Assembly (NCBI RefSeq): GCF_014634745.1
Contig: NZ_BMBP01000001.1
Span: 372,001 to 436,000 of the forward strand
Origin: Leuconostoc pseudomesenteroides KCTC 3652
GTDB taxonomy: Bacteria > Bacillota > Bacilli > Lactobacillales > Lactobacillaceae
Reading direction: 5' to 3'
Length of the DNA: 64,000 bases
The position numbers and the translations under genes are program-made. The notes beneath the pieces were generated by a model. That model was not told where the DNA came from, did no database searches, and worked only from the letters and a program-made list of their open reading frames with translations. Shown piece after piece: positions 5,181 to 54,855 of this stretch (position 1 is the first letter of the stretch; each line of letters begins with the position of its first letter).

Positions 5181-5206
5181 AAACAGCAACTTAATGATTG
5201 CTGTTT
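5181..5206 (-). terminator. Terminator of amino-acid permease gene
   Basis: AAACAGCAA and TTGCTGTTT pair across an 8-nt loop and run into TTTTTTATTTG on the minus strand. The 5' arm lies inside the last codons and stop of the permease gene. Confidence 0.75.
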
Positions 5207-6591
5207 GAACCTTGCTGCATTTTCTTAGCATGCCAAGCACGTGTTGCAAAGAAAACAATGGTCATGATGACTAGAAAAGCAAACCCAACAAGCAATGGTG
5301 CTCGTGTATCGGGGTTAATCATCATAAATACCAACGTCACCAATAACATCAAAATCGCAAAATAGTTGGTGTATGGTGCAAATGGCATTTTAAAGGGATG
5401 ATCTGCCATTAATACCGCATTAGCTTTTCGGAATTTGATTTGGCTAACCAAAATGACAAACCAAGGCACCATACCGGGTAACGTACTGGCTGAATAAACC
5501 AGTACAAAAATGCTAGAACTACCATGCCAAAACATGGGCAAAACTGCATTTAAAATGATGCCTAACAAGATACCACCAGAAATCGCTAACACAGGCAGCG
5601 TTGGCACACGGTGCTTAGATAATTTCAAAAACTTAGGTGATAATTCTTTTCCCAAAGCCAACGTGTACAGCATGCGACTTGATGAAAAAATTCCCGAATT
5701 CAACGCAGACATTGCAGCCGTCATCATGACAAAATTAATGATCCCCGCAGCAGCTGTAATACCTACTCGTGAGAAAGTCTCCACAAATGGTGATCCCACT
5801 TGATCTAATTTATCCCAAGGATAGATCGTAATGATAACAAAAATAGCACCAATATAAAATATTAAAATACGCGCAACAATTGATTTAATAGACTTAACAA
5901 TGGCAACCTGAGGATTGGCGGCTTCACCTGCTGTAATACCAATAATCTCAATTGCTTGATATGATGTAATGACAATTGATAATGCAAAGAAAAATCCTTT
6001 TATCCCACCAGCAAAAAATGGTCCGTGCGCCCACAAATTTGAAAAGCCTAAGGGTTGCCAATGATTACCAAATCCTAGTAAAATCACGAGCAATCCTAGA
6101 ATAATCATGAAGATGATAGTGACAACCTTAATTAACGAAAACCACGTTTCCATTTCACCATAAGCTTTCACCGTCACTAAGTTAGCTGCTGTCAACATCG
6201 CTAATACGACAACGCCCGTCACCCAATCGGGAATGTGTGGGAACCAAAAGTCTAAGTAAATGCCCACGGCAATTGTTTCACTAACACCAACTGTCAGCCA
6301 TTGAAATACATTTGCCCACACCGTGAGATATCCAGCTACGGGATGAATATATTTTGTAGCGTAATTTGCAAAAGAGCCAACCGATGGATCAACATATAAC
6401 ATTTCTCCCAAAGCACGCATCACCAAATACAGCACTAAACCAGCCAATGCGTATGCCAACAGGACAGAAACACCTGTCCATTTAATAGTTGCTGAAGATC
6501 CCATGAAAAGGCCGACACCTATCGTGCCACCTAGTGCAATCATCTGCATTTGACGTGATGATAAATCACGATTTAATTCTTTTCCTGCCAT
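5191..6591 (-). CDS. Amino-acid permease, APC superfamily (AAT type)
   Basis: A 466-residue proton-coupled amino-acid importer. It has about 12 hydrophobic segments and the AAT-family opening LSSRQMQMIALGGTIGVGLF, with SYQAIEIIGITAGEA in the middle and charged C-terminal residues. The ATG at 6591 is chosen because GAGG lies about 10 nt upstream; an upstream in-frame TTG overlaps that site. A T-box leader controls the gene, so it is induced when one tRNA is uncharged. The cognate amino acid cannot be fixed from the protein alone. Confidence 0.92.
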   Translation of the reverse strand: MAGKELNRDLSSRQMQMIALGGTIGVGLFMGSSATIKWTGVSVLLAYALAGLVLYLVMRALGEMLYVDPSVGSFANYATKYIHPVAGYLTVWANVFQWLTVGVSETIAVGIYLDFWFPHIPDWVTGVVVLAMLTAANLVTVKAYGEMETWFSLIKVVTIIFMIILGLLVILLGFGNHWQPLGFSNLWAHGPFFAGGIKGFFFALSIVITSYQAIEIIGITAGEAANPQVAIVKSIKSIVARILIFYIGAIFVIITIYPWDKLDQVGSPFVETFSRVGITAAAGIINFVMMTAAMSALNSGIFSSSRMLYTLALGKELSPKFLKLSKHRVPTLPVLAISGGILLGIILNAVLPMFWHGSSSIFVLVYSASTLPGMVPWFVILVSQIKFRKANAVLMADHPFKMPFAPYTNYFAILMLLVTLVFMMINPDTRAPLLVGFAFLVIMTIVFFATRAWHAKKMQQGSNSNH

Positions 6592-6618
6592 AACTCGTCC
6601 ATCCTCTTTTTTAAACAA

Positions 6619-6872
6619 ATAAAAGCGCCCTCGAATAAAAATTCAAGGGCGCTTTTCGCGCGGTACCACCTTAGTCATATCAGCCGTCATCAAAAATAGC
6701 CAATTCATTTCACTCTCATTGGAATAACGACCAATGACACCGGTCATACTTTCACGTGCGCTAATCGTATGTCACTTCGGAGGTAGTTATTCACCATCAT
6801 TGCTTTGCCACTCTCACCAAGTATGGCATCTCTTCAACAACAACAATAGTTACTTGTCCTCTTCAACGTTTT
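6619..6872 (-). promoter_or_regulatory. T-box tRNA-sensing leader
   Basis: The diagnostic T-box sequence AAGGTGGTACCGCG lies at 6659-6672 (minus). Upstream is a stem I with AGTA (loop E) on the 5' side, a distal GGTGAGAG loop and GAA on the 3' side. The terminator is a long stem at 6621-6656 followed by TTTTATTTG. The specifier loop reads GAATAACTACC; spacing after GAA favours AAC (Asn), while CTA and TAC are alternatives. The bulge UGGU would pair with a tRNA having A73, which speaks against Asn if that tRNA carries G73. Confidence 0.93.
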
Positions 6873-6877
6873 CATCA

Positions 6878-7218: not shown

Positions 7219-8250
7219 CTATATGACTTGTTCTTCATCCTTTTCAGCTAAATGAAACACATGCCAGATAGTAATGGCAATAATCCAAGCAACAACAAAC
7301 AACCCAACCAAGATGATACCCATTTGATTAAAATCCAGCGCGTTTGCCCATCTCGTTAAACCATTTTGCCAGCCAAGCATGACGGAAAATGATTGAATAA
7401 AGTCCACAAACCCAATGAACCCAGCAGCTAAAATAGAAATGCCTGTAATCGTCAAATTATAATAGACTTTTCGATATGGTGATGAAAATACCCAATGATA
7501 TGTTGTACTCATAAAGAAGCCGTCAACAGTATCCATCAAACACATCCCCGCAGTAAACAGCAACGGAAAAGCCATGGTTGAATACCATGGTATTCCCTCA
7601 TTAGCAGCGGTAGCAGACGTGGCCAAAACCGCAATTTGTGTCGCAGTATCAAAGCCTAAACCAAACAAAAAACCAACGATTGCCACTTGCCAATTATGCT
7701 TGATCATGCCCAATAACTTCAAAAACAAACGATATATTTTAGAGGTGTTAACTTGTTCCTGCTTATCATCCACACCATTGCGATGATGCATTGCCGTAAA
7801 TTTCACCCAAATATCACGCAAAATAAAACTATTGACAATAGCTAACATTATCAACATAGCAGCTGCAATTGAAGTCCCTAAGGCGCCACCAATATGTTCA
7901 AAAACCGGCATGGCATGTTTGGCCCACTCGACAAATAAAACTGTTGCCATTGCCATCAATACCACAACCATTGAATGACCAAATGAAAAACTGAAGCCGA
8001 CACCGCGCGTATTTTTGCCATCATTTAGCATTTTACGCGTCATGTTATCAATGGCAGCAATATGATCGACATCAAATGCATGCCTTAGTCCCATGGTGAA
8101 CGACAAATAAGCCATTGCTATCATTTCAGGATACTGCGCAGCACTGGTCATTAATAACATTATTCCTGAAATTAAAAAAAGGACGATTATTGCACCATAG
8201 CGCATTGCATCTGACTGTAACGTTGTTTGTTTTTGTGTGCTTAACATCAT
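7219..8250 (-). CDS. Nickel/cobalt-family (NiCoT, HoxN/NixA-like) metal transporter
   Basis: A 343-residue inner-membrane permease with about eight hydrophobic segments. All family signatures are present: RHAFDVDHIAAIDN at 56-69 (the metal-binding HX4DH), FSFGHSMVV, GFLFGLGFDTATQ and GMCLMDTVDGFFM. NiCoT proteins import Ni2+ and/or Co2+; the metal here is not predictable by eye. AAGGAG lies 9-10 nt before the ATG. No nickel enzyme gene is visible nearby. The gene sits downstream of a Leu-rich leader peptide and a strong terminator (8426-8462), so expression would depend on antitermination. Its upstream neighbours are the leu and suf operons, which points to metal supply for those pathways (inference). 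No convincing terminator follows. Confidence 0.92.
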   Translation of the reverse strand: MMLSTQKQTTLQSDAMRYGAIIVLFLISGIMLLMTSAAQYPEMIAMAYLSFTMGLRHAFDVDHIAAIDNMTRKMLNDGKNTRGVGFSFSFGHSMVVVLMAMATVLFVEWAKHAMPVFEHIGGALGTSIAAAMLIMLAIVNSFILRDIWVKFTAMHHRNGVDDKQEQVNTSKIYRLFLKLLGMIKHNWQVAIVGFLFGLGFDTATQIAVLATSATAANEGIPWYSTMAFPLLFTAGMCLMDTVDGFFMSTTYHWVFSSPYRKVYYNLTITGISILAAGFIGFVDFIQSFSVMLGWQNGLTRWANALDFNQMGIILVGLFVVAWIIAITIWHVFHLAEKDEEQVI

Positions 8251-8360
8251 GTTTTTTCTTCTCCTTGCACTGTAAAAATAAGATTATCATAGGATATATT
8301 CTCTGGTAAACATAGCGAACAAATGGTGTCCTTAGTAGACAAATTATGTCCTTTCAACAT
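8247..8360 (-). CDS. Possible 37-residue small ORF overlapping the transporter start
   Basis: An ATG at 8360 opens a 37-codon frame ending KGHNLSTKDTICSLCLPEN...VQGEEKT; its stop overlaps the transporter start (ATGA). It holds a CxxC pair. The ribosome site is weak (AAAG). It lies after the attenuator terminator, so it would be co-expressed with the transporter. It could be a coupling or metal-sensing peptide, or chance. Confidence 0.25.
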   Translation of the reverse strand: MLKGHNLSTKDTICSLCLPENISYDNLIFTVQGEEKT

Positions 8361-8425
8361 GCTACTTTGACGAGAAGGTGATCGATAATCGCTGACTACA
8401 TTTGTTGCTTTGAGTGCATCAACAC

Positions 8426-8462
8426 AAAAACACCCCAACCATATTAAAGTTGGGGTGTTTTT
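8426..8462 (-). terminator. Attenuator terminator before the metal transporter
   Basis: A perfect 14-bp stem (AAAAACACCCCAAC / GTTGGGGTGTTTTT) with a 9-nt loop and T run on the minus strand. It stands 176 bp before the transporter start and 69 bp after the leader-peptide stop, in the attenuator position. Its 5' arm CCCAAC can instead pair with GTTGGG at 8471-8476. Confidence 0.85.
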
Positions 8463-8470
8463 AATGTTGT

Positions 8471-8529
8471 CCCAACTATCTACCAAACGATTTTTATTTA
8501 GTAGATAGTCACTCAAAGAACCTACTAAA
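8471..8529 (-). promoter_or_regulatory. Competing leader hairpins before the metal transporter
   Basis: Minus-strand segments, in transcript order: TTTAGTAGG (8521-8529), CTATCTACTAAA (8497-8508), TTTGGTAGATAG (8476-8487), GTTGGG (8471-8476). TTTAGTAG pairs perfectly with CTACTAAA; that segment pairs alternatively with TTTGGTAGATAG. The first segment also pairs with CCTACT inside the leader-peptide frame. These are mutually exclusive structures of the kind used in ribosome-controlled attenuation. Confidence 0.65.
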
Positions 8530-8531
8530 CC

Positions 8532-8588
8532 TCAATTGAGGAGTAGGTAGAGGAGAGAATGATTGACTTGCTTCATTGTTTTATGCAT
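8532..8588 (-). CDS. Leucine-rich leader peptide (MHKTMKQVNHSLLYLLLN)
   Basis: An 18-codon frame with a good ribosome site (AAAGAGG, 7 nt before ATG) about 40 nt downstream of a consensus promoter. Five of the last seven codons are Leu (CTC CTC TAC CTA CTC CTC AAT, then TGA). The stop lies inside the first hairpin, so ribosome stalling for want of charged tRNA-Leu would decide which downstream hairpin forms. The downstream gene is a Ni/Co-type transporter. Confidence 0.75.
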   Translation of the reverse strand: MHKTMKQVNHSLLYLLLN

Positions 8589-8632
8589 AATTTTACCTCT
8601 TTTTTTGTTATTTATTTAACAATATAATTAAA

Positions 8633-8661
8633 ATTATATTATTAAATTTTCATTTTGTCAA
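8633..8661 (-). promoter_or_regulatory. Promoter of leader peptide/metal transporter unit
   Basis: TTGACA (8656-8661), 17-bp spacer, TATAAT (8633-8638): full consensus on the minus strand. It begins right after the stop of the YrdC-like gene, with no terminator in between. Confidence 0.85.
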
Positions 8662-8665
8662 ACGT

Positions 8666-9454
8666 TTAATAATAAAATCCGTGACGATAATCCCATGACG
8701 AGAAAATATCACTCATAATTTTCATGATTTTGTCGACATCTAATCCTTTACGAATAACGATTGGTGCTGGTTGAACACCAACAGCACCATTTTGTTCTGG
8801 GATAAGCTGACCTGCTTCGTCAACCATTGATACCATCACACCTTGTTCGTAACGTGTGTCCAGCGTCTTATCAGGTTGAATTGATGCCACATAATCATCG
8901 GCCTCAATAATTAGGTCAGCAGCATTTTCAATTTGATCACCAATACCAGCTACCAAACCACGGTTTCCTTTACCAGAAGGATTAGCTGAACTTGCAAACG
9001 AGAACTTGCCATACTTTTCCCACATTTCTTTGGCGATATTTTCACTTGGTGTACCAAACTTGATAACAAAACAACTCGTTTCACGTTGATCCATCATCAA
9101 ATCTTTTGTACCGTCATTTGGTATCTTGCTCTTAGCTTCTGCTTGCCATGGTAAGATGCACCCCAACAAAATATCCTCATTCCAATGTTGTTGATACATT
9201 TGTTCGATTTCTGGTGTCATTTGCGCTAATTCTTTAACTTGTTCTACTGAACCACATAATACGACACCTGGCTTGTTACGCTTGCGATTTTTGGCAGCAA
9301 ACTTTCTTTCTAATCCTTTATCGTCTGAAGTCATGATAATGTAACCCACTTTTGTTGGACTCACAATCATTCCGCCATCTTCTTTCAAGATATTAATGGC
9401 TTCAGCTTGAACGCCACCATTCCAATGAATCTTTGCTGTTGTTGCTTCTGTCAT
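8666..9454 (-). CDS. Sua5/YciO/YrdC-family protein
   Basis: A 262-residue protein of the YrdC-like fold, which binds RNA or nucleotides. Typical features are SPTKVGYIIM near the start (the PTDTVYG-like strand), NRKRNKPGVVLC, and FASSANPSGKGNRG (matching the SANxSG motif). Members such as Sua5/TsaC make threonylcarbamoyl-AMP for tRNA t6A37; YciO-type paralogues have unclear roles. The divergent N-terminal motif (SPTKVGY) suggests a YciO-like paralogue rather than the essential enzyme. It lies 62 bp after leuD with AAAAGGA as ribosome site and no terminator between, so it probably shares the leu transcript. A link to leucine synthesis is not known. Confidence 0.8.
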   Translation of the reverse strand: MTEATTAKIHWNGGVQAEAINILKEDGGMIVSPTKVGYIIMTSDDKGLERKFAAKNRKRNKPGVVLCGSVEQVKELAQMTPEIEQMYQQHWNEDILLGCILPWQAEAKSKIPNDGTKDLMMDQRETSCFVIKFGTPSENIAKEMWEKYGKFSFASSANPSGKGNRGLVAGIGDQIENAADLIIEADDYVASIQPDKTLDTRYEQGVMVSMVDEAGQLIPEQNGAVGVQPAPIVIRKGLDVDKIMKIMSDIFSSWDYRHGFYY

Positions 9455-9516
9455 GATAAAATACCATCCTTTTAATATATTGCTTTTTGTTTCTGATTTA
9501 TAAATGATTTGCTCGT

Positions 9517-10101
9517 TTATCCAAAATTTGGTCGTTGCTTTTCAAACGCTGAAATCAATTTTTCATATTTCATTGTGTTATCAATATCGTCTTCACCATT
9601 GATAAATTTTTCTTTCCATTGTGAATTAATATCAAAATGGAAAATATTATTTTTATAAGTCACAGTTTGTTCAGGTAAATCAATTTGAATAGTTTCATCT
9701 GCTTGAATGCCTCGCAATATTTTCCGATTTTCTTCAGGCAACACAATTGGTAGCAAGCCATTCTTGGTTGAATTCATGTAAAAAATGTCTGAAAATCCGC
9801 CGCCAATTACTGCTCTAAATCCATAATCCGTTAACGCCCATACTGCATGTTCTCGTGATGATCCTGATCCAAAGTCATTGCCTGTAATCAAAATTGAAGC
9901 ACCCTTATGTTCTGGTTTGTTTAGCTCGAATGCCTCATTTAATGAGCCGTCGGTATTGTAACGCCAGTCATAAAATAAATCTTTCCCAAATCCGGTTTTC
10001 AAAATGTTTTTCAAAAATTGTTTAGGCAAGATAATATCAGTATTAATGTTGTCATTTGGAATCACAACCGCTCTGCCTACTTCGCTTACAAAAGCTTCCA
10101 T
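9517..10101 (-). CDS. leuD: 3-isopropylmalate dehydratase small subunit (LeuD)
   Basis: 194 residues, normal family length. Small (swivelling) subunit of isopropylmalate isomerase, which converts 2- to 3-isopropylmalate with LeuC. Family motifs: [12 protein letters not shown] near the start and [17 protein letters not shown] at about 73-89. Ribosome site GGGGGA before the ATG. It starts 9 bp after leuC in leuABCD. Confidence 0.97.
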
Positions 10102-10110
10102 ATTATCCCC

Positions 10111-11487
10111 CTATACAAATTCATCTGTCGTAATATCAACAAAGTGACCAGCAATTCCTGCCGCAGCAACCATCGCTGGAGAAGCCAAATGCGTTCTTGA
10201 TCCTGCCCCTTGGCGTCCAATGAAGTTTCTATTTGATGTTGACGCAACATGTTTGCCAGCCGGTATTTTGTCAGGATTCATTGCCAAACATGCTGAGCAT
10301 CCTGGTTCACGCCATTCACACCCAGCATCTTTAAATATTTTAGCAATGCCTGTTTTAATTGCACGATTTCTAATGGCACGACTACCTGGCACGATCCATG
10401 CAGTGACGTTGGGCGCTAAATGATGCCCTTTCATCATATTTGCAGCAATTTCAAGATCTTCGTAACGGCTGTTCGTGCATGAGCCAATGAAAATGTAATC
10501 CAAATTAATATCAACTGGCTTCATATTGGGGTGTAAACCAATATATTCATAGGCATTAGCATCATTTTCATCTTTAATTTCTGGCAAATACTGATCAACA
10601 GCTGTTGCCATGCCTGGATTTGTTCCCCATGTCACCATCGGCTTCAAATTTGATACATCAAAGGTCAGTATCTTATCAAAATCACTTTCATCATCTGTAT
10701 AGAATTGTGACCAATACTCTTTTGCAGTTTCAAAATTCTTGGGTGCTTGTTCACGACCCTCAATGTAATCAAATGTCGTTTGATCTGGCTGTACCATACC
10801 AGTTCTTGAACCAGCTTCAATTGACATGTTACACATCGTCATACGTGCTTCCATTGAAAGATTTTCAACAGTTTCTCCGTAAAATTCAATCGCATAGCCG
10901 ACACCAAATGACACCCCATATTTAGCAATGATGCCCATGATAATGTCTTTGGCGTACGTATTTTTAGGCAGCTTCCCAGTAACCTTAATCCCCATGGTTT
11001 TTGGTTTCACCTGCCAAATCGTTTGAGTCGCTAGCACGTGCTCAACTTCGGAAGTACCAATACCAAAGGCGATTGCGCCAAACGCACCGTGAGTTGCTGT
11101 ATGGGAATCACCACATACGATTACTTTTGCAGGCTGTGTTAGACCGCGTTCGGGTCCCACAATATGCACAATGCCTTGTTTGTCATCACCAATTGATGCT
11201 AATGGGATGTTAAATTCTTTCGTGTTTTTGACTAATGTGTCCATCTGCAATCGAGACATTTGATCTTGCACATTAAATATATCTTTCGTTGGTACATTAT
11301 GATCCATGGTTGCAAAAGTTAGATCTGGTCGTCTCACCCGGCGATTTGTACTTCTCAACCCATCAAAGGGTTGAGGCGAGGTCACTTCATGTACCAAATG
11401 CAAATCGACATAAATCAGTTGAGCCTCACCAACTTCCCCAGTAATGACGTGTTTTTCCCAAATTTTATCAAATAGTGTTTTGCTCAT
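10111..11487 (-). CDS. leuC: 3-isopropylmalate dehydratase large subunit (LeuC)
   Basis: 458 residues, aconitase family. Carries the [4Fe-4S] cluster of isopropylmalate isomerase. The three cluster cysteines are visible: FIGSCTNSR at about residue 340 and GCSACLAMN near 405. The substrate-binding [21 protein letters not shown] segment lies near residue 125. The start overlaps the leuB stop by 4 bp (ATGA). Its need for an Fe-S cluster ties this operon to the SUF operon immediately upstream. Confidence 0.98.
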
Positions 11488-12557
11488 TTTATATCCGCCG
11501 ATTCATATTTTTTGATGTAATCAATCATTTTTTGTGTGACTTCATCGGTCGTCATTGTGCCACCCATGTCTGGCGTCACATAGTGATTTTCAATAACGTA
11601 ATCTACTGCTGCAGTAATTTTATTGGCAATCTTTTTTTCATCAAAGCTTTCTGATAACATCATTGCTACCGTATTCACCATAGAAATGGGGTTGGCTATG
11701 CCTTGACCAGCAATATCAGGTGCTGAACCGTGAATTGGTTCATACAAATTAGGACCGCTTTCACCAACTGACATAGATGGTATTTGCCCAATGGAGCCTG
11801 TAATTTGTGCTGCTTCATCACTTAAAATGTCCCCAAACAAATTAGGTATAATCACAACATCAAATGTTGCGGGCTTAGTCATAATTGCCATTGTCATCGC
11901 GTCAACATAATAATCGTCGATTGTTACATCTGGGTAACTTTCGCCAATTTCATGAGCAATCCTTCGCCAAAACTTTGATGTAGCCAATACATTCGACTTA
12001 TCAACAATCGTGACATGCTTACGCCGCCTTTGCGCCATTTTAAAACCTTGGTGCATAATACGAGTCACTTCTTCTTCACTGTAATACATCGTATCAATGG
12101 CTTGATGTGCTTCGAGCTTACGTGGTTTTCCAAAATAAGCACCAGAGGTCAGCTCACGAACGATTACAAAATCCGTATTTTCAACATACTCTGGCTTCAG
12201 TGGTGAGCGGTCAATTTGCGCTTGAGTCACTTTTGTTGGCCGTATATTAGCAAATAAATTAAGTTTTGATCTAATTTCTAATAACCCTTGTTCTGGGCGT
12301 CGTGGCGCATTATCCCATTTCGGTCCACCAATTGCACTAAGGAGCACCGCATCAGCTTGCTTTGAAACATCAATAGTCGATTGGGGTAAAGGATCACCAG
12401 CTCGATCAATACCATCACCACCAAAAGGTGCATCTATAAGTTCATAGGAAAATGCTTCATTCCTTGTCGCAGCATCTAATACTGATAACCCGGCTGTCAT
12501 GATTTCCGGACCAATATAATCGCCTTTTAAAACTACTATTTTTTTAACGGATGTCAT
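11484..12557 (-). CDS. leuB: 3-isopropylmalate dehydrogenase (LeuB)
   Basis: 357 residues. Oxidatively decarboxylates 3-isopropylmalate to 2-ketoisocaproate with NAD+ and Mg2+ or Mn2+. Motifs: LNLFANIRP (substrate Arg), [30 protein letters not shown] (metal Asp) and [15 protein letters not shown] (NAD site). The N-terminal loop reads GDYIGPEI where most members have GDGIGPE(I/V), a Gly-to-Tyr change next to the cofactor. The start is 2 bp after leuA. Confidence 0.97.
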
Positions 12558-12558
12558 A

Positions 12559-13731
12559 TTATTGATAACTCACCATTTCTTTTTCTGCAACGACTTGCAT
12601 AATCACCTTTAATTGCTCATCTGTAATCAAATCAGACGCTTCAGCAACTAACTTAAAAATAGGAAAAATTATTTTCATATCATCACGCGTCACCTCATAA
12701 CCTAAGCTATTTAGTTTTGACATGACGGCATGCGATCCTGACAATTTACCTAAAGGTAAGGACGCCGTAGCACCAACCATTTCTGGCTTCAAAATCTCAT
12801 ATGTTTCTGGATTTTTTAAGTAGCCATCTTGATGAATACCAGATTCATGAGCAAAGGCATTGCGTCCCATAATTGGTTTATTACCCGCAACTGGCATGTG
12901 GGTTGCGCGTGCGACAACGTCAGAAATAGTTTTCGACTGCGCTAGGACAATATCCGTTTCAACATTAAACTTTTCATGACGCACTTGAATCGCTGCGGCT
13001 GCTTCAATCATGTCAACATTTCCAGCGCGTTCACCAATACCATTAATTGTGCCCTGAATTTCCGTCGCCCCATGCGCAATGCCTGCCAAAGCATTAGCTG
13101 TTGCCATTCCCAAATCATTATGCGTATGAGTTGACCAACCAACTGTGTCAAAACCAATAATATTTTGACGTAAGTTTTCAAAAACCTCACCATATTCTTC
13201 TGGCGTATCATAACCAACTGTGTCTGGTATGTTAATCATTGTTGCTCCGGCGTCAATGGCTGTTTGCACGCTGGCTACCAAAAAATCAGGTTCAGTTCTC
13301 GTCGCGTCTTCAGGTGAAAACACAATGTCTTGCATATATTGCTTAGTAAAAGTAACGTCTGCTTTGATTTTGTCCAATATTTCTTCTTTAGTCATGTGCA
13401 ATTTGAACTCACGATGAATGGGTGAAGTTGCAATGAACACGTGAATCATTGGATGTTTTGCATTCTTAGTTGCCTCAATAACGGCATTAATATCGTTTCT
13501 GACCATTCGTGCCAAACCGACAACTTTTGCATTATCCACAACTTCTGCAATTTTTTTAACTTCCTCAAAATCTTTCTGAGAAGCCGCAGGAAATCCCGCT
13601 TCAATGGCGGCAACGCCATAATTATCCAGTCCTTTTGCTATTTCAATCTTTTCGTCAATTGAAAAGTTAACCCCAATTGTTTGTTCACCATCACGCATTG
13701 TTGTGTCATAAAAAGTTACTTTGCTTGCCAT
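12559..13731 (-). CDS. leuA: 2-isopropylmalate synthase (LeuA), short form without regulatory domain
   Basis: 390 residues. Condenses acetyl-CoA with 2-ketoisovalerate, the committed leucine step. The TIM barrel carries FYDTTMRDGEQ at 7-17 and the metal-binding HTHNDLGMA near 203, with GIGERAGN after it and the C-terminal linker motif FAHESGIHQDG. It stops just after the linker (EKEMVSYQ). Typical LeuA proteins run to about 510 residues with a leucine-sensing C-terminal domain; that domain is missing, with no sign of a frameshift. Feedback inhibition is therefore probably absent or altered, leaving the leader attenuator as the main leucine control. First gene of leuABCD. Confidence 0.95.
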   Translation of the reverse strand: MASKVTFYDTTMRDGEQTIGVNFSIDEKIEIAKGLDNYGVAAIEAGFPAASQKDFEEVKKIAEVVDNAKVVGLARMVRNDINAVIEATKNAKHPMIHVFIATSPIHREFKLHMTKEEILDKIKADVTFTKQYMQDIVFSPEDATRTEPDFLVASVQTAIDAGATMINIPDTVGYDTPEEYGEVFENLRQNIIGFDTVGWSTHTHNDLGMATANALAGIAHGATEIQGTINGIGERAGNVDMIEAAAAIQVRHEKFNVETDIVLAQSKTISDVVARATHMPVAGNKPIMGRNAFAHESGIHQDGYLKNPETYEILKPEMVGATASLPLGKLSGSHAVMSKLNSLGYEVTRDDMKIIFPIFKLVAEASDLITDEQLKVIMQVVAEKEMVSYQ

Positions 13732-13750
13732 AATTTTCTCCTTAAATTAA

Positions 13751-13785
13751 AATCCCGGATTAGTCAATATGACTAGTCCGGGATT
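13751..13785 (-). terminator. leu attenuator terminator
   Basis: A 16-bp stem with one G-U pair and a 3-nt loop, followed on the minus strand by TTTTAATTTAAG. It lies 20 bp before leuA and downstream of the Leu leader peptide. Confidence 0.9.
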
Positions 13786-13826
13786 ATGCACTCACATCCT
13801 TTTATTCACTAGCCATTAGATAAATA

Positions 13827-13879
13827 CCTAACAACTAGCTCAAAAGCTCAACTTGTTAGGGTAGTCTAAGCAAGTTGAG
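13827..13879 (-). promoter_or_regulatory. leu leader pause and alternative hairpins
   Basis: CTCAACTTG (13871-13879, inside the Leu codons) pairs perfectly with CAAGTTGAG (13847-13855), a pause hairpin spanning the leader stop. Overlapping CCTAACAA (13853-13860) pairs instead with TTGTTAGG (13827-13834). The two foldings exclude each other. Confidence 0.7.
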
Positions 13880-13930
13880 GAGAAGGGCTGCGTTTGTTTT
13901 GTTAATTTGTACTGTGGCCTGATTTCTCAT
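13856..13930 (-). CDS. leuL: leu operon leader peptide
   Basis: A 24-codon frame with ribosome site AAAAGGAAG. It ends ...NAALLLNLLRLP-stop with codons CTT CTC CTC AAC TTG CTT AGA CTA CCC TAA: six Leu codons in the last nine. The stop lies in the loop of the first hairpin. This is the standard arrangement for ribosome-mediated leucine attenuation, as described for the Lactococcus lactis leu-ilv operon. Confidence 0.88.
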   Translation of the reverse strand: MRNQATVQINKTNAALLLNLLRLP

Positions 13931-13961
13931 GTGAAACACTTCCTTTTAATTTAATAATCCA

Positions 13962-13990
13962 ATCATAGCGGGTATGTCATTTATCGTCAA
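13962..13990 (-). promoter_or_regulatory. leu operon promoter
   Basis: TTGACG (13985-13990), 17-bp spacer, TATGAT (13962-13967) on the minus strand, starting 44 bp after the sufT stop. No terminator separates the suf operon from it. Confidence 0.8.
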
Positions 13991-14033
13991 TTTTCAGGTG
14001 TATTTTATTCCAAATTTATATAATTTTGCCACG

Positions 14034-14339
14034 CTATAATCCTAACGCCATTTTAGCGTATCGTGACATTCTATTGATTTCCCAAGCTGGTTGCCAAGTG
14101 AGTTCAACTTTGGTTGTCTTAACTTCAGGCAAAATTTTTAATGCGTCATCAATCATTTCTTCCAACACACCAATCAGCGGGCACCCCATTGTTGTCAACG
14201 TCATATTAACAGTGACGTCACCGCTTGCGCTGATAGCAACACCGTTAATTAGTCCCAAATTAACGATATCCACTCGCAGTTCTGGGTCAATGACCGTTGT
14301 CAAAGCATCCATAATACTTGCCTCAATTTTTTGATTCAT
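14034..14339 (-). CDS. sufT: DUF59/MIP18-family Fe-S assembly protein (SufT-like)
   Basis: 101 residues, a complete single DUF59 (PaaD-like) domain. Motifs: TVIDPELRVDIVNLGLI near the start and LTTMGCPL, with the conserved Cys, at about 50. The last third is VELTWQPAWEINRMS. Such proteins act as auxiliary factors in Fe-S cluster maturation. Last gene of the suf operon, 3 bp after sufB. Symbol by context. Confidence 0.88.
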   Translation of the reverse strand: MNQKIEASIMDALTTVIDPELRVDIVNLGLINGVAISASGDVTVNMTLTTMGCPLIGVLEEMIDDALKILPEVKTTKVELTWQPAWEINRMSRYAKMALGL

Positions 14340-14342
14340 AGC

Positions 14343-15773
14343 TTATCCTACCGATCCCACCATTTCAAATTTCATTAATCGATTTAACTCAACCGCATAT
14401 TCCATTGGCAGCTCTTTTGTGAATGGCTCAATAAAGCCCATAATAATCATCTCTGTGGCTTTTTCAGCAGAAATACCACGTGTCATGAGATAATACAATT
14501 GCTCTTCGGAAACACGTGAAACTTTTGCCTCATGTTCCATCGACACATTGCCATTCAAAATTGTATTATATGGAATCGTATCGGCTGACGATTTATCATC
14601 AACTAAAATTGTGTCACACTCGACGTGAGCAAATGACCCATCAGACTCGCGACCAAATTTCACTGTACCGCGATAATCTGTGGCACCACCATCGTGTGCA
14701 ATTGATTTTGAAATGATAGATGACGAGGTATTTTTGGCATTATGAATCATTTGCGCGCCAGAATCTAAATTAACGCCTTCGCCAGCAACGGCAATTGATA
14801 ACATGGTGCCTTTTGCACCCTCGCCCTCCAAATAAACTGATGGATATTTCATCGTGGTTTTTGAACCAAAATTACCATCAACCCATTCCATTGTGGCATT
14901 TTCATGCGCTGCTGCACGTTTTGTTTCCAATGAATAGACATTATTTGACCAGTTTTGAATCGTCGTGTAGCGGCAATAGCCATCTTTTTTAATAATCACT
15001 TCTACCACAGCAGCATGCAGCGCATCCCCTGAATACATTGGTGCTGAACACCCTTCAACATAATCAACATGTGCCCCTTCGTCAACAACAATCAATGTCC
15101 GTTCAAACTGACCCTCATTTTCAGTATTAATTCGAAAATAAGACTGAATCGGTGTCGTCACGTGGACACCTTTCGGTACATAAATGAATGTACCACCAGA
15201 CCAAACTGCTGAATTTAAGGCCGCTAATTTATTGTTGGTTGGTTTGACAAGTGACCCAAAGTATTCTTGAATAAGCTCGGGATATTCTTGGACCGCAGTA
15301 TCTGTGTCGGTAAAAATAATCCCTGTCTTAGCAAATTCTTCTTTCATGCGATGGTAAACCACTTCGGACTCATATTGTGCAGAAGAGCCGGCTAGCCACT
15401 TCCGTTCGGCTTCTGGAACACCCAAGCGTTCAAAGGTGGCTTTCAATTCCGCTGGCACGTCATCCCAGTCACGATATTTGTCATTGGTTGGCTTGTTATA
15501 GTAATAAATATCATCAAAATTGATTTCGCTTAGATCCGGTCCCCATTGCTGCATTGGCATTTTGAGATATGTTTGATATGCTTGCAATCGGTAATCCAGC
15601 ATCCACTCCGGTTCATTTTTTTTAGCTGAGATTTGACGGATAATGTTTTCATTTAGTCCTTTACCCGTCGAAAAAACTGCTTGATAATCGTCTTGAAAGC
15701 CTAATTCAGTCGCCTTATCATTTGAAATAGCTGCCTTTGTTTGATCAATAGCTACTTGTCTGTCTATTTCCAT
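14343..15773 (-). CDS. sufB: Fe-S cluster assembly scaffold SufB
   Basis: 476 residues, normal SufB length. Partner of SufC and SufD in the SufBC2D scaffold on which Fe-S clusters are built. The N-terminal helical region is followed by the parallel beta-helix core, with [18 protein letters not shown] and [20 protein letters not shown] (family Cys). It ends with the [23 protein letters not shown] segment shared with SufD. Ribosome site AAGAGGGG. Order in operon: regulator-sufC-sufD-sufS-sufU-sufB-sufT. Confidence 0.97.
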
Positions 15774-15786
15774 GCTTGCACCCCTC

Positions 15787-16221
15787 TTATTTTTCTATTG
15801 CTAATAATTCTGCCAAAGCATGCCATGCTAAAGTTGCACACTTGATTCGCGTTGGGAATTTAGTCACACCTGAAAGAATTTGCGCTTCCCCAAGAGCGTT
15901 ATAATTTCCCGCTTCGCCACGAACCATTTTTGAAAATTGATCTACTAGCTGAGTAATCTGGCTGGTATTTTTCCCGATAACTAAATCCGTCATTATCGAA
16001 GCGGAAGATTTCGATATAGCACAACCATCCCCATAAAAATGAATATCAGTCACAATATCATGATCTATATTAAAAGCCAAATCAATGACATCACCACAGG
16101 TCGGATTATACTTTCGAATATGATAATTTTCGGTTCCCAACATAGGCTGATAATGGTGCGGATGTTGCGCGTATGCCATAATCGTTTGACGGTACAAATA
16201 ATCTAAATTATGCAAACTCAC
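15787..16221 (-). CDS. sufU: SufU zinc-dependent sulfur transfer protein
   Basis: 144 residues, IscU-like fold of the Gram-positive SufU type. It accepts persulfide from SufS using bound zinc. Ligand positions are visible: NPTCGD (Cys and Asp), DGCAISKSS (Cys) and [11 protein letters not shown] (Cys). The start overlaps the end of sufS by 14 bp, so the pair is translationally coupled. Confidence 0.96.
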
Positions 16222-17434
16222 GGTTAAAGTACTCCTTAATTTTTCCTAAGGTGGCAACAAAGCGATCAATTTCTTGACGTGTATTATAGATGTAAAAACT
16301 AACACGAACAGTCGCAGCAACATCTAAATAATGCATCAGTGGCTGTGCACAATGGTGTCCTGCTCGTACCGCAATACCTTCTTGATCCAATGCAGTCGCT
16401 AAATCATGCGCATGAATACCCGCTATATTAAATGCGATTACACCAGTGTGCTGTTCACTTTCTTGCGGACCATAGACAGTCAGACCATCAATACTTTTAA
16501 GCTTTGGCAAAGCATAATCAACAAGTGATTGTTCGTATTTCGCTACCTCAAACATCCCGATATTTGTTAGATAGTCCACAGCAGCTCCCAGACCAATAGC
16601 ACCAGCAATATTTGGTGTCCCCGCTTCAAAGCGCCAAGGCAATGGTTGAAACGTTGCTTCATGTAAATCGACAAATTCAATCATTTCGCCACCAAATTGT
16701 GCTGGTCGCATTTGATTTAACACATCATACCTGCCGTACAGCACACCAATACCGGTTGGTCCCAGCATTTTATGACCTGAAAAAGCAAAAAAATCAACAC
16801 CCATTTCTTGCACGTCTATTGCCATGTGAGGCACTGATTGTGCCCCGTCAGCAATCATGATGGCACCGTGTTCATGTGCCATCTGAGCTAATTTTTTAAT
16901 TGGATTGACCACACCCAACACGTTCGAAGCATGAGTAACTGATACGATTTTGGTTTTATCAGACAGTTTTGCTTCGGCATCCGCCAAGTCTAAGGTACCG
17001 TCTTCTTTAAGAGCAATATATTTCAAGCTAGCACCAACCCGCTTGGCCAACTGTTGCCACGGAACAATATTAGAATGATGTTCCATGTACGATAAGAGAA
17101 TTTCATCTCCTTGTTTAACATTTTCTACACCATAAGTACTTGCCAGCCAATTCAACGATTCAGTTGTGCCACGTGTGAACAACACTTCTTCTCGCCTTTT
17201 GGCATGTATCAATTTTTGGACCTTGTCTCGCGCTTTTTCATATAAATTGGTAGCACGTTGTGATAATTCATAAATACCACGATGCACATTAGCATTGTCG
17301 TTTTGATAGTAATCAGTGATGGCATCGATGACAAATTGAGGTTTCTGCGAAGTTGCAGCGCTATCGAAATATATCAGAGGTTCGCCATTAATTTTTTGGT
17401 TAAGTATTGGAAAATCAGTTTGATTCATCTTCAT
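16208..17434 (-). CDS. sufS: Cysteine desulfurase SufS
   Basis: 408 residues, class V aminotransferase fold with PLP. Removes sulfur from cysteine for Fe-S assembly. The PLP lysine is in FSGHKMLGPTG, the persulfide Cys in RAGHHCAQP near residue 363, and TRGTTESLNW binds the PLP phosphate. The start overlaps sufD by 20 bp; a second ATG two codons on (MNQTDF) is also possible. Confidence 0.97.
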   Translation of the reverse strand: MKMNQTDFPILNQKINGEPLIYFDSAATSQKPQFVIDAITDYYQNDNANVHRGIYELSQRATNLYEKARDKVQKLIHAKRREEVLFTRGTTESLNWLASTYGVENVKQGDEILLSYMEHHSNIVPWQQLAKRVGASLKYIALKEDGTLDLADAEAKLSDKTKIVSVTHASNVLGVVNPIKKLAQMAHEHGAIMIADGAQSVPHMAIDVQEMGVDFFAFSGHKMLGPTGIGVLYGRYDVLNQMRPAQFGGEMIEFVDLHEATFQPLPWRFEAGTPNIAGAIGLGAAVDYLTNIGMFEVAKYEQSLVDYALPKLKSIDGLTVYGPQESEQHTGVIAFNIAGIHAHDLATALDQEGIAVRAGHHCAQPLMHYLDVAATVRVSFYIYNTRQEIDRFVATLGKIKEYFNREFA

Positions 17435-18605
17435 GTTTTAACTTTCTGTCAATTTCCGTCACTACCTGCTGTTGCGCTTCCTTTGTTGGCATTTTTGCTA
17501 ATACTTCACCCATAAATCCGCGAATAACCAGTTTTCGAGCAACTTGTTCACTAATGCCTCGACTCATTAAATAATACATTTGATCCTCATCAACACGACC
17601 AACGGAAGCGGCATGACCAGCAGTCACATCATTTTCATCAATTAATAATAGTGGATTAGCATCACCGCGTGCTCGACGTGATAACATCAAAACACGTGAC
17701 TCTTGTTGTGCATCTGAACCCTGTGCGCCTTTAATAATTTTGCCAATACCGTTAAATACTAGAGTTGAGCGGTTTAAAATGACACCTCGCTGGAAAATAT
17801 GCCCTAATGTATGCCGCCCACGATTCAAGATAGTGGTCACAAATCCTTGTGTTTGCTTTTTAGTTGTCAGCCCAATGACATTGGCATGTGAGGTAGCCCC
17901 CTCACCATTCAATTGACTAGCTAAGCGGATTATCGCATTGCCATCATTAAATTCAGCATTTTGCCAATCAAGTGTGGCATGGTCTCTCACTTCAGCCTCA
18001 CGATTAATATAAGCTGTTGTTTGCTCGTTAAAGGCGTCAATATTAGCATAAGTTACTTGGGCACCAACATCAGCGATGACTTCAACAACAACTGAAGCTT
18101 TGGTTTTTTGATCGCTTATCGTGTGTATTTCTTGCAAAATATCCACCTTAGCATTTGCACCAATATAAACAAAAATACGCGCAACCAAATCTTTGCCAGA
18201 GGCAGCCAAATGATTTAATGTTAAATGCAAAACGTCATCAAATTGGACGTTTTCTGGGATATATACAAAAATTCCTGTATTAAATTGCGCAAAATTTTGT
18301 GCGGATAAACGATCGGTTGTCTTAGTAATGACGGTGCCAACCATTTTTTCTAGCAGAGCCGGATAGTCGATTTTTGCTTGAACCATGCTCATCAAAATCA
18401 CACCTTGAGCAGTCAACGCCTCGGTCAAATGTTGGTAGGTTGTCGATAATCCACTCACTTCGATACCATTTTCTTTATTTTTCATAAAAAATGGTGTCGT
18501 GGCTGTTTCAGTGGCTGGTATCATATCATCTAGTTGCCACGCGTTATACCGTACTTTGGCAAATGTAGGCAATGGTAAAGATTGGATTGCATGAGTATCA
18601 GCCAT
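17415..18605 (-). CDS. sufD: Fe-S cluster assembly protein SufD
   Basis: 396 residues. Scaffold partner of SufB and SufC, with the SufBD beta-helix core and C-terminal SRGISEQVARKLVIRGFMGEV signature. The ATG at 18605 is chosen because GGAGG lies 6 nt upstream; an earlier in-frame ATG at 18620 lies inside sufC and has no ribosome site. It starts 1 bp after the sufC stop. Confidence 0.96.
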   Translation of the reverse strand: MADTHAIQSLPLPTFAKVRYNAWQLDDMIPATETATTPFFMKNKENGIEVSGLSTTYQHLTEALTAQGVILMSMVQAKIDYPALLEKMVGTVITKTTDRLSAQNFAQFNTGIFVYIPENVQFDDVLHLTLNHLAASGKDLVARIFVYIGANAKVDILQEIHTISDQKTKASVVVEVIADVGAQVTYANIDAFNEQTTAYINREAEVRDHATLDWQNAEFNDGNAIIRLASQLNGEGATSHANVIGLTTKKQTQGFVTTILNRGRHTLGHIFQRGVILNRSTLVFNGIGKIIKGAQGSDAQQESRVLMLSRRARGDANPLLLIDENDVTAGHAASVGRVDEDQMYYLMSRGISEQVARKLVIRGFMGEVLAKMPTKEAQQQVVTEIDRKLKHEDESN

Positions 18606-18606
18606 A

Positions 18607-19407
18607 TTAATCCTCCACAAAATATGAGTTCACATCTTCGTCAGTTAACTGAACACTCAAACCCAATTCATCTCGAAGACCAGCATAGCCTTCAGTTTCC
18701 AGCTTTTTGGCCAATTCGGCGCCACCTGTTTTGACAATTTTGCCGCCCATCATCACATGAACAAAGTCTGGCACAATATAATCCAGAAGTCGCTGATAGT
18801 GAGTAATCATTAACGCGCCAAAATCGCTAGATCGCATGTCATTAACGCCTCGGGAAACAACTTTCAAAGCATCAATATCTAATCCTGAGTCAATTTCATC
18901 CAAAATCGCAATTTTTGGTTCAATCATCATCATTTGCAAAATTTCATTGCGCTTTTTCTCCCCGCCTGAGAAACCTTCATTAAGATAACGTTCCGCCATT
19001 TCTTCAGACATAGATAAAAATTCACGTTTTTCATCCAGTTTTTCAATGAATGACATAACACCAATTTGATCATCTTCTGGACGACGCGCGTTAATGGCTG
19101 CCCGCATGAATTCAGCGTTGGTCACGCCTTGAATTTCTGATGGGTATTGCATGGCTAAAAACAAACCGGCGCGTGCGCGTTGGTCAACTGACATGTCAGC
19201 TAAATCTTGATCGTCAATGGTAATATGACCTTCAGTCACCTCATAAGCTGGATGTCCCATAATGGTTTGCGATAGTGTCGATTTACCAGTACCGTTTGGT
19301 CCCATAATGGCATGAATTTCACCAGTATTAACAACCAAATTAACCCCTTTCAAAATTTCTTTTCCTGCCACTGAGACATGTAAGTTTTCAACCTTGAGTG
19401 TTGTCAT
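18607..19407 (-). CDS. sufC: Fe-S cluster assembly ATPase SufC
   Basis: 266 residues, ABC-type ATPase of the SUF scaffold. Walker A GPNGTGKST at about 36-44, signature region FSGGEKKRNEILQ near 147, Walker B with KIAILDEIDSGLD near 166, switch His in MITHYQR. The first SUF gene. It overlaps the end of the regulator gene by 20 bp, so regulator and SUF genes share one transcript. Confidence 0.98.
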   Translation of the reverse strand: MTTLKVENLHVSVAGKEILKGVNLVVNTGEIHAIMGPNGTGKSTLSQTIMGHPAYEVTEGHITIDDQDLADMSVDQRARAGLFLAMQYPSEIQGVTNAEFMRAAINARRPEDDQIGVMSFIEKLDEKREFLSMSEEMAERYLNEGFSGGEKKRNEILQMMMIEPKIAILDEIDSGLDIDALKVVSRGVNDMRSSDFGALMITHYQRLLDYIVPDFVHVMMGGKIVKTGGAELAKKLETEGYAGLRDELGLSVQLTDEDVNSYFVED

Positions 19408-20251
19408 TTTTATTTCCCCCTTTGCGTTGACTGAGCTTTTTTAGGATAGCTTCGTTATTATGTATTTTAGCAATTACACGCGCATTTTCAATCATTTCAT
19501 TGACAATAAATTTTTGACTATGCCACATGTCGCTTGCTTGCACCAATTGCCAGAAGAAGTTTTCCAAAAAATAGGTGCTATCACTGGCATTGGCTAAATC
19601 AATTCCATAAGTGGCTAACATCATTGCCACTTGATAATTTTTCATCAACATCTGATATTCTGCTAGTAGATAGACAATTGCTTCTTGGCAACCGGTGTGG
19701 TCATTGACAGCATTTGATTTTTGATGACGCCACACGTCTTCAAACGCTTGTTGCGCCTTGGTAAATTGACCACATCGATAATAATAATGACTGGTTATCG
19801 CATAAAACAATAATTTGTATTGTTGATTGAAACACGCAATATCAATGTGCGATACCAATTTCTTCGCTTGATTATCATCTTGCAACAAAATTACCGTATA
19901 AAAGTATTTGGCGATTTGATAGGTTGACAACTCTTTATCAAGCATTTTATCCAGCGCTACTTGTTCAATATTCTTTTTAAATTGCGTAACATTTTGGTAA
20001 AATAGTGCTTTTAAAGCCTGTGTCAGTAGCTTTTCATTGCGTGTTTGATGTGAAGAAACTGCTATTGGAAACACATCATTTAATGTCAATCCTATTCTTT
20101 CACACAGCGCTACCATAATCTCAAATGATGGAATTTGTTGATGTTTTTCAAATTTTGAAAGTGTGGCTTGCGTGCAAATACCTGAACAAAGCGCAACCTG
20201 CGATATCTTGAGATGTTTTCTCGTCTTAATAAATTTTTCTATGTTGATCAT
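19388..20251 (-). CDS. XRE/Rgg-like transcriptional regulator heading the suf operon
   Basis: 287 residues. Residues 1-60 are an XRE helix-turn-helix (FIKTRKHLKISQVALCSGIC ... LSKFEKHQQIPSFEIMVALCERIG). The rest is helical and TPR-like, as in Rgg/PlcR regulators, which often bind small peptides. The ATG at 20251 is used because GGGAG precedes it; the longer frame would run back through the leader terminator. The stop overlaps sufC, so it may control the SUF operon or be a passenger. Its placement behind an attenuator with a Leu/Val-rich leader frame is unusual. Ligand unknown. Confidence 0.85.
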   Translation of the reverse strand: MINIEKFIKTRKHLKISQVALCSGICTQATLSKFEKHQQIPSFEIMVALCERIGLTLNDVFPIAVSSHQTRNEKLLTQALKALFYQNVTQFKKNIEQVALDKMLDKELSTYQIAKYFYTVILLQDDNQAKKLVSHIDIACFNQQYKLLFYAITSHYYYRCGQFTKAQQAFEDVWRHQKSNAVNDHTGCQEAIVYLLAEYQMLMKNYQVAMMLATYGIDLANASDSTYFLENFFWQLVQASDMWHSQKFIVNEMIENARVIAKIHNNEAILKKLSQRKGGNKNDNTQG

Positions 20252-20273
20252 GTTTCTCCCAAAAGCTACAAAA

Positions 20274-20305
20274 AAGCACCTAACTGTCAAAACAGTTAGG
20301 TGCTT
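20274..20305 (-). terminator. Attenuator terminator before regulator-suf operon
   Basis: A perfect 14-bp stem (AAGCACCTAACTGT / ACAGTTAGGTGCTT) with a 4-nt loop and TTTTTTG on the minus strand. It lies between the leader frame and the regulator start, 23 bp before that start. Confidence 0.88.
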
Positions 20306-20315
20306 AATCCGATAT

Positions 20316-20377
20316 CCCAACCGTCTACTCTATTTCTGAAAGAAAATAGTAGACGATTAACACAAAATAGCCTACTA
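20316..20377 (-). promoter_or_regulatory. Competing leader hairpins before regulator-suf operon
   Basis: In transcript order: TAGTAG (20372-20377), CGTCTACTATTT (20344-20355), AGTAGACG (20322-20329), GTTGGG (20316-20321). TAGTAG pairs with CTACTA; CGTCTACT pairs alternatively with AGTAGACG, extended by ATTT/AAAT across a 2-nt bulge. GTTGGG can pair with CCTAAC in the terminator 5' arm (one G-U). The same order of segments occurs before the metal transporter at 8471-8529. Confidence 0.65.
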
Positions 20378-20378
20378 G

Positions 20379-20438
20379 TCACGTGAGGACAAGGAGGGCA
20401 AAAAATGTGTTGTTCAATTGTGTTGTTATCTTATTCAT
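20379..20438 (-). CDS. Leu/Val-rich leader peptide (MNKITTQLNNTFFALLVLT)
   Basis: A 19-codon frame ending TTT TTT GCC CTC CTT GTC CTC ACG TGA, with a Leu-Leu-Val-Leu-Thr tail. The ATG lies only about 8 nt after the predicted transcription start and has no Shine-Dalgarno, so translation would be nearly leaderless. The stop comes just before the first hairpin segment. The position matches the leucine leader frames at 8532 and 13856; function is inferred. Confidence 0.55.
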   Translation of the reverse strand: MNKITTQLNNTFFALLVLT

Positions 20439-20451
20439 AATATTGATACCC

Positions 20452-20480
20452 ATTGTATGCGCATTCGTTAATAATGTCAA
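20452..20480 (-). promoter_or_regulatory. Promoter of regulator-suf operon
   Basis: TTGACA (20475-20480), 17-bp spacer, TACAAT (20452-20457) on the minus strand. Confidence 0.85.
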
Positions 20481-54704: not shown

Positions 54705-54740
54705 AGTAATCAACATTTAAAAAACACTAGCTTATGCAAC

Positions 54741-54810
54741 ATATCTCCCTGCGTACGTACTAACGTCATCAGGTTCAATGGGTATTTCTCAGCCAATCGG
54801 CACCCCAGAT
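54741..54810 (-). promoter_or_regulatory. TPP riboswitch (THI element)
   Basis: Minus strand reads GGGGTGCC, GGCTGAGA, ATACCC, GAACCTGATG and CGTACGCAGGGAG in order, the complete conserved THI core, with closing P1 arms ATCT/AGAT. TPP binding would favour the downstream terminator. A promoter TTTACA-16-TAAAAT fits just upstream. Confidence 0.97.
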
Positions 54811-54855
54811 ATTTTATTTAATTCAAGATAAGTGTAAATGAATGTCACCAGATAA

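Follow-up and report, generated by a model that had tools for sequence, protein, structure and literature searches.

A 64,000-nucleotide stretch of the genome of Leuconostoc pseudomesenteroides KCTC 3652 (the window; contig NZ_BMBP01000001.1, positions 372,001 to 436,000) carries on its minus strand a SUF operon for Fe-S cluster assembly, the leucine operon leuABCD, and a gene for a putative NicO-family transporter (nicoT). Paralogous ribosome-mediated attenuators probably place these three units, together with a PTS_EIIC_2 gene of the same genome, under the control of charged tRNA-Leu, and the SUF operon also under that of tRNA-Ile/Val in genomes where IlvD exists. The anatomy of the leaders and their shared descent are well supported, and their sequences suggest the response to amino acids. 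On balance, we slightly favor a further reading, in which the charging of amino-acid tRNAs signals how much Fe-S assembly is needed, duplicated attenuators bring control codons to both suf and the metal transporter, and the suf codons evolve to match the remaining Fe-S enzymes (LeuCD and IlvD). Leucine shortage would then probably turn on enzyme and cofactor supply together.

Leaders of the three window units

The first-pass annotation of the window had assigned to each unit a promoter-like site, mutually exclusive hairpins, an intrinsic terminator, and a short open reading frame (ORF) with Leu (or Leu/Val) codons at its end, and reading of the sequence together with scans confirmed this architecture. 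All features of this section lie on the minus strand, and each leader ORF given below ends in a stop codon. The first unit (14034..20251) comprises genes for an HTH_3 regulator, sufC, sufD, sufS, sufU, sufB, and a SufT/DUF59-like gene. The promoter scan places a site, TTGACA-17-TACAAT, at 20452..20480, followed by the leader ORF MNKITTQLNNTFFALLVLT (20379..20438) with a weak ribosome-binding site. Another ATG in the same frame, with its position at 20453, overlaps the −10 site, and the peptide end in the window contains only three Leu and one Val. The preemptor helix 2:3 (20347..20377) pairs TAGTAG (20377-20372) with CTACTA (20352-20347), with 83.2% of alignment cells paired in a 9-pair version. 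It is followed by helix 3:4 (TCGTCTACT with AGTAGACGG; 20321..20356), the antiterminator helix 4:5 (20293..20323; CGGTTGGG at 20323-20316 with CCTAACTG at 20300-20293; paired in 96.9% of cells over 16 sequences), and a 14-bp intrinsic terminator 5:6 (20274..20305).

Downstream of the suf unit lies leuABCD (9517..13731), with a promoter-like site from the same scan, TTGACG-17-TATGAT (13962..13990), and the leader ORF MRNQATVQINKTNAALLLNLLRLP (13856..13930) behind the ribosome-binding site AAGGAAG. Here, a protector hairpin 1:2 (CTCAACTTG with CAAGTTGAG; 13847..13879) spans the Leu codons, and the preemptor helix 2:3 (CTAACAA with TTGTTAG; 13828..13859), helix 3:4 (CTAGTTGTTAG with CTAATGGCTAG; 13809..13838), the antiterminator helix 4:5 (ATGGCTAGT with ACTAGTCAT; 13769..13816), and the terminator 5:6 (13751..13785) follow. 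The nicoT gene (7219..8250) encodes a putative Ni/Co-type transporter whose scores stay under the NCBIfam cut-offs for nico and NicT. Its scanned promoter-like site, TTGACA-17-TATAAT (8633..8661), matches the consensus at 12/12 positions, and its leader ORF MHKTMKQVNHSLLYLLLN (8532..8588) has the ribosome-binding site AGAGG. The preemptor helix 2:3 (TTTAGTAG with CTACTAAA; 8497..8529), helix 3:4 (ACTATCTACTAAA with TTTGGTAGATAGT; 8475..8509), the antiterminator helix 4:5 (AGTTGGG with CCCAACT; 8448..8477), and the terminator 5:6 (8425..8463) complete this leader.

Such parts also occur by chance. The promoter scan returned 76 sites versus 58.3 expected in 17 kb, and a lone promoter-like site therefore carries little weight. 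Over both strands of the 64 kb, the scan for terminator-like hairpins found 16, of which five have an upstream ORF with at least three Leu in its last ten codons. These five are the three leaders, 8323(+), which is the nicoT terminator read from the opposite strand (3 Leu), and 61641(+), with 5 Leu out of frame within a gene that we take to be greA. The means of 15 Markov-1 resamplings, a null that takes no account of coding structure, were 2.5 terminators, 0.2 with an ORF of at least three Leu, and 0 with at least four. As the case inside the presumed greA demonstrates, real sequence does yield false positives. The codon pattern LL(L/F)-(N/S)-(L/F)-L gave five matches in the window's own genome versus three for a reversed control; four of the five were rejected, lying within stop-to-stop frames of >90 codons, and the fifth is the leuA leader.

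Conservation in the genus and a fourth leader

We searched 60 genomes, 19 of which belong to the genus of the window, including its own (G000). The genes leuA, sufC, and nicoT are present in 17 of these 19; the two genomes without leuA (G008 and G013) also lack sufC (E<=1e-60) and nicoT at the thresholds used. Model R1, comprising 24 suf and nicoT leaders from 16 of the suf-bearing genus genomes, matches the suf leader in 17/17 suf-bearing genomes of the genus, and the leader ORF is intact in 16/16 read (the ORF of the G018 leader was left unread). Of the 17 leuA-bearing genomes, 15 gave a readable leuA leader, the exceptions being a split match (G002) and a contig end (G018); three genomes of other genera gave one as well. 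Thus, as the first-pass annotation had anticipated, Leu codons and hairpins are conserved in relatives within the genus for suf, leuA, and nicoT. Because G024, from another genus, has leuA and EIIC_2 leaders yet shows no suf leader, the latter seems to have arisen within this genus, as far as sequence comparison can tell. G024 and G025, where no suf leader was seen, stand outside the suf set.

An intact nicoT leader of its own precedes the gene in seven of the 17 nicoT-bearing genus genomes (G000, G014, G017, G016, G015, G001, and G003). In G002, G004, G005, G007, G010, and the other-genus G024, nicoT directly follows sua5 and, going by match coordinates, lies 3.9-5.2 kb downstream of leuA, with the intervening leuBCD not read; G006, G011, and G012 have a gap after sua5 that contains no leader match, and G018 stops at a contig edge. 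Because nicoT either follows sua5 below leuA or has its own leader, the metal transporter seems to be linked with leu through the operon or a leader. Membership of nicoT in the proposed regulon by way of its own leader would apply to the seven genomes; no intact own leader was found in the remaining nicoT-bearing genomes of the genus. At locus L221 of G009 (G009:C4:57000-67500), a suf-type leader precedes a second copy of nicoT, which is oriented divergently from ilvD; between this leader and the gene lies, judged by eye, an apparent remnant of a SufT-like gene.

The first-pass annotation had proposed a possible leucine-starvation regulon of three units. Conservation supports these units, but the set is larger. 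R1 also matches a fourth leader, which precedes a PTS_EIIC_2 gene, in 19/19 genus genomes (G008 and G013 included) as well as in G036 and G025. Among the 21 fourth-leader peptides read, 18 end in LLLNLLLI, those of G000 and G014 in LLLNLQLI, and that of G011 in LLRNLLLI. The peptide of the window's genome, found as an R1 match and read, is MTKHMTIKFNNALLLNLQLI (G000:C2:398021-398158). The gene behind the fourth leader encodes a protein of ∼380 amino acids with a PTS_EIIC_2 domain (PF13303, tested in G000 only).

Two further models were built, R2 from 18 EIIC_2 leaders and R3 from 13 leuA leaders. R2 recovers nicoT leaders in five and suf leaders in two of 11 genus genomes drawn (E 7e-10 to 5e-5), and R3 recovers EIIC_2 leaders in other genera, for example in G024 (E 2e-11) and G186 (E 1e-8). 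Because R1, R2, and R3 each find leaders outside their own class, the four leader classes are, by their sequences, one paralogous family. Across 251 genomes of the wider family, R2 has matches in 23 and R3 in 32; some of these matches are spurious, and others were left unread. Tandem EIIC_2 paralogues occur in genus g2 (G163 L291/L305; G186 L328/L295), with a Leu-rich leader before the first gene and an Ile-rich one before the second: ..ALLLNLLSLS and ..IIIISLQTN in G186, and ..FALLLSLLMYS and ..IIIVSLLNN in G163, two of these peptides being translated by eye. The pairing of tandem paralogues with Leu and Ile leaders hints that the PTS_EIIC_2 membrane protein may handle branched-chain compounds.

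Several matches were set aside. The weak R1 matches in G011, G012, and G027 lie inside genes, on either strand; the R1 match G018:C101 is similar to these and was not read. On reading, no leader was found at the R2 matches in G112, G150, G188, and G236 or at the R3 match in G149, whereas the R3 match in G112 is a leuA leader. R3 matches in G078, G086:C1, G091, G120, G148, G156, G162, G187, G190, G196, G243, and G149:C40 were left unread.

Proposed switch, control codons, and alternative explanations

From the observed anatomy, conservation, complementarity, paralogy, and codon patterns, we infer a course of stalling, folding order, readthrough, and benefit. All four leader classes share one plan, in which one form consists of helices 1:2, 3:4, and the terminator 5:6, and the other of helices 2:3 and 4:5. 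With ample Leu, the ribosome would reach the leader stop codon, 1:2 and 3:4 would form, and arm 5 would be free for the terminator. When charged tRNA-Leu is scarce, the ribosome would stall on the terminal Leu codons, mostly the rare CTC, and cover arm 1, so that 2:3 could form once arm 3 is made. This would free arm 4, whose tail would capture arm 5; the terminator would fail, and the genes would be transcribed. Since LeuCD and, where present, IlvD are Fe-S enzymes, the amino acid would stand in for Fe-S demand at suf.

The codon content of the leaders is in line with this proposal. In-frame Leu makes up 45% of the last ten codons in nicoT leaders (8 sequences), 48% in leuA leaders (18), and 32% in suf leaders (16), which in addition have 19% Ile and 7% Val; the other reading frames contain 5-21% Leu. 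Among the Leu codons of window ORFs with at least 200 amino acids, CTC is the least frequent (95/1685, 5.6%, chance frames included), yet it accounts for 13 of the 19 terminal Leu codons in the four G000 leaders (p=1e-12 versus 5.6%).

Moreover, the Ile/Val content of the suf leader follows ilvD. This gene (PF00920) is present in six of the 19 genus genomes (G003, G005, G009, G015, G016, and G017). It lies divergently beside the suf regulator in the listed regions of G017 and G005 and, by match coordinates, in G003, G015, and G016; in G009, it stands by the second nicoT copy. The last ten codons of the suf leader contain 3, 4, 5, 4, 4, and 4 Ile+Val in the genomes with ilvD and 1, 1, 2, 3, 3, 3, 1, 1, 0, and 3 in those without (Mann-Whitney p=0.002; phylogenetic generalized least squares (PGLS) slope 2.4, t=6.0, n=16). 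These p values are post hoc, because the pattern was noticed before testing. Sister comparisons made by reading the tree agree with the trend, with some weak nodes (support 0.32-0.48). Leu stays at 2-4, with no Mann-Whitney difference by ilvD in any of five windows and a PGLS p=0.012 in one of the five. The earlier view of leucine as the suf signal is supported in that the Leu codons are kept, but Leu alone is too narrow where ilvD is present and 3-5 codons are Ile/Val. Because an Fe-S serine dehydratase (PF03313) is absent from 19/19 genus genomes, LeuCD and IlvD may be main SUF clients here. A gene of the sodium/bile-acid-symporter family (PanS-like, below cut-off) adjoins ilvD (L216 6453-6821 and L221 4514-5470) and possibly encodes a keto-acid transporter.

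The terminator form is well conserved in structure, with 93.7% of cells paired in suf (16 sequences), 95.8% in leuA (15 distinct), 91.7% in nicoT (9), and 96.1% in EIIC_2 (18). Two-sided changes affect 10/27, 12/41, 7/32, and 5/24 pairs, respectively (the EIIC_2 count leaves out 1:2), and the covariation score was reached by 0/500 shuffles in each class. In the antiterminator form, 89.7% of cells are paired in suf (4:5 alone, 96.9%), 94.2% in leuA, 95.5% in nicoT, and 96.3% in EIIC_2, versus 9-55% in slid controls. The complementarity of 4:5 and 2:3 is conserved, and covariation proper is weak. Forcing 2:3 in the four G000 leaders, folded up to arm 5, gave P(4:5)=1.00 in all. At equilibrium, the G000 leuA leader behaves as expected for a switch, with P(4:5) of 0.71 naked and 0.72-1.00 with a stalled ribosome. 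The nicoT leader G009a, which has no start codon, is left out of the frame count and R1 and kept in set A4. Also left out are the G021 and G030 leuA leaders from A3; G008, G014, and G018 from A6; and G014, G015, and G001 from A7.

A number of observations weigh against the proposed switch. Ribosome-binding sites, judged by eye, are good for the leuA, nicoT, and EIIC_2 leaders but poor for the window's suf leader, and several relatives likewise lack a good site before suf. Its own leader accompanies nicoT in 7/17 genomes only, and the G009 copy has decayed and lost its start codon. The suf leader, matched in 17/17 genomes within the genus, was not seen at 5/5 suf loci read in other genera (G023, G024, G025, G030, and G035). 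The CTC preference may in part be a pairing constraint. Two-sided changes in the antiterminator are few (3 pairs in suf, 2 in leuA, 2 in nicoT, and 1 in EIIC_2), and its covariation was reached by 76, 62, 35, and 28 of 500 shuffles, respectively. Because arm 4 resembles arm 6, the 4:5 pairing is partly implied, and because the EIIC_2 antiterminator is nearly invariant, its pairing says little. When 3:4 was forced in the same four G000 leaders, arm 5 paired upstream with a probability of 0.10 in suf, 0.67 in leuA, 0.60 in nicoT, and 0.94 in EIIC_2, a score that counts any upstream pairing of arm 5 and not arm 4 alone. Equilibrium P(4:5) in the other G000 leaders was 0.40 naked and 0.00-0.01 stalled for suf, 0.91 and 0.11-0.65 for nicoT, and 0.00 and 0.01-0.07 for EIIC_2. 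This masked-ribosome folding took a wrong hairpin as the terminator in suf of G015, G001, and G006, leuA of G004, and nicoT of G017, and took no terminator for EIIC_2 of G002. Because plain equilibrium folding supports leuA only, the switch would need a co-transcriptional order, with 2:3 forming before arm 4 is made.

These points bear on the alternatives to different degrees. The suf and nicoT leaders could be copies of leuA- or EIIC_2-type leaders that mainly act as constitutive partial terminators, with Leu sensing confined to leuA and EIIC_2. The weak ribosome-binding site before the suf leader in the window, the decayed nicoT leader of G009, the equilibrium folding of suf and nicoT, and the finding of the suf leader in this genus only would fit this view. 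However, the suf leader ORF is intact in 16/16 read, its stems and 4:5 complementarity are kept, and its Ile/Val content follows ilvD, which is unexpected for an idle ORF. We consider this explanation improbable. Somewhat less probable still is that the Leu codons are a by-product of pairing (arm 1, CCTACT.. versus ..AGTAGG) in a leader ORF that has no amino-acid specificity and only couples translation to termination, in response to, for example, general translation stress or ribosome-binding drugs. The Leu run does partly overlap arm 1, and drug-sensing leader attenuation is already known, but the Leu codons continue upstream of arm 1, Leu is biased to one reading frame, Ile/Val content tracks ilvD, and the tandem EIIC_2 paralogues have Leu versus Ile leaders.

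Leaders of the T-box type, which bind tRNA directly and would replace leader peptides, are brought to mind by the T-box nearby at 6642-6875 (−). The leaders studied here contain a conserved ORF instead, and no T-box match was obtained at the suf, leuA, and nicoT leaders with either gathering or permissive thresholds; we rejected this explanation as extremely improbable. Attenuation by paralogous leader peptides remains the reading that we prefer.

Gene neighborhood and comparison with known systems

On the minus strand, the regulator-sufCDSUB-SufT-like unit is followed by leuABCD, a Sua5/YrdC-family gene, and the NicO-family gene. The HTH_3 regulator (19391-20251, −) that opens the suf unit shows 39-93% identity within the genus, versus 83-99% for SufC. 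The Sua5/YrdC-family gene in the leuD-nicoT interval (8666..9454, −) scores above the Pfam and below the TIGR00057 cut-off. The T-box leader at 6642-6875 (−), the sole T-box match obtained, scores 86.3 bits, under the 93-bit gathering score, and precedes an APC permease gene (5191-6618) whose best NCBIfam match is ThrP, below its cut-off; its specifier, judged by reading the alignment, is ACU (Thr). A TPP riboswitch lies at 54729-54817 (−; 71.1 bits). Megablast gave zero matches to plasmids and, against phages, short matches to a peptidase gene only.

LeuA of the window (12559-13731, −) has 390 amino acids, versus 509-539 reached by LeuA frames in other families of the order. The stretch absent from the short LeuA is, we presume, the leucine-binding regulatory domain, and attenuation may therefore provide the feedback control. 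Numerous invariant columns in LeuA and the kept attenuators speak for the short LeuA being functional, in a pathway under selection. A 391-amino acid LeuA of Leuconostoc was called likely inactive, and ilvD was reported missing from sequenced leuconostocs (PMC5289962); contrary to this, ilvD is present in the six genus genomes named above.

Descriptions of attenuation usually concern a switch that acts on one pathway, the synthesis of the amino acid being sensed. In the present case, a single RNA device seems, through its own duplication, to have brought an enzyme, the assembly of its cofactor, and transport under a common response to starvation. This reading predicts that suf leader codons follow the Fe-S clients in other lineages also. 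The mechanism is already known, and suf, NicO, and EIIC_2 appear to be new targets; in the open literature, with subscription papers mostly outside our search, we found no description of suf, a NicO transporter, or EIIC_2 under leader-peptide attenuation.

The Fe-S side has parallels in other Gram-positive bacteria. The suf operon of Streptococcus mutans has the same sufCDSUB order, and its suf mutants show poor growth when leucine or isoleucine is lacking (PMC11631912). Regulation of the operon is described there through promoter binding and cysteine induction, and the words leader, attenuat, and terminator are absent from that text. In Staphylococcus aureus, SufT is required for LeuCD and IlvD activity, a maturation effect independent of leuCD/ilvD transcription (PMC4982691); here, a SufT-like gene closes the suf unit.

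Many bacteria are known or predicted to control their leu/ilv operons by leader-peptide attenuation (PMC6123439 and PMC5794164). The leaders described here resemble those of Escherichia coli, Salmonella, S. aureus ilv-leu, and, as predicted, Lactococcus (PMC5794164, PMC6123439, and PMC1183508) in their short leader peptide rich in branched-chain amino acids, their alternative hairpins, and their terminator. Rare control codons have been discussed for the Salmonella leu leader (PMC1183508), and rare Leu codons are likewise found in the leaders here. The S. aureus ilvD attenuator, also from a Gram-positive bacterium, combines a Leu/Ile leader with two upstream stem-loops that refold; whereas pairing between its freed motif and the poly-U tail has been proposed (PMC5794164), in the leaders here it is the terminator's 5′ arm with which arm 4 can pair. 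In contrast to the leu/ilv attenuators of those papers, which precede biosynthetic operons, related copies here also precede cofactor-assembly and transporter genes, and the terminator would be opened through the 4:5 helix.

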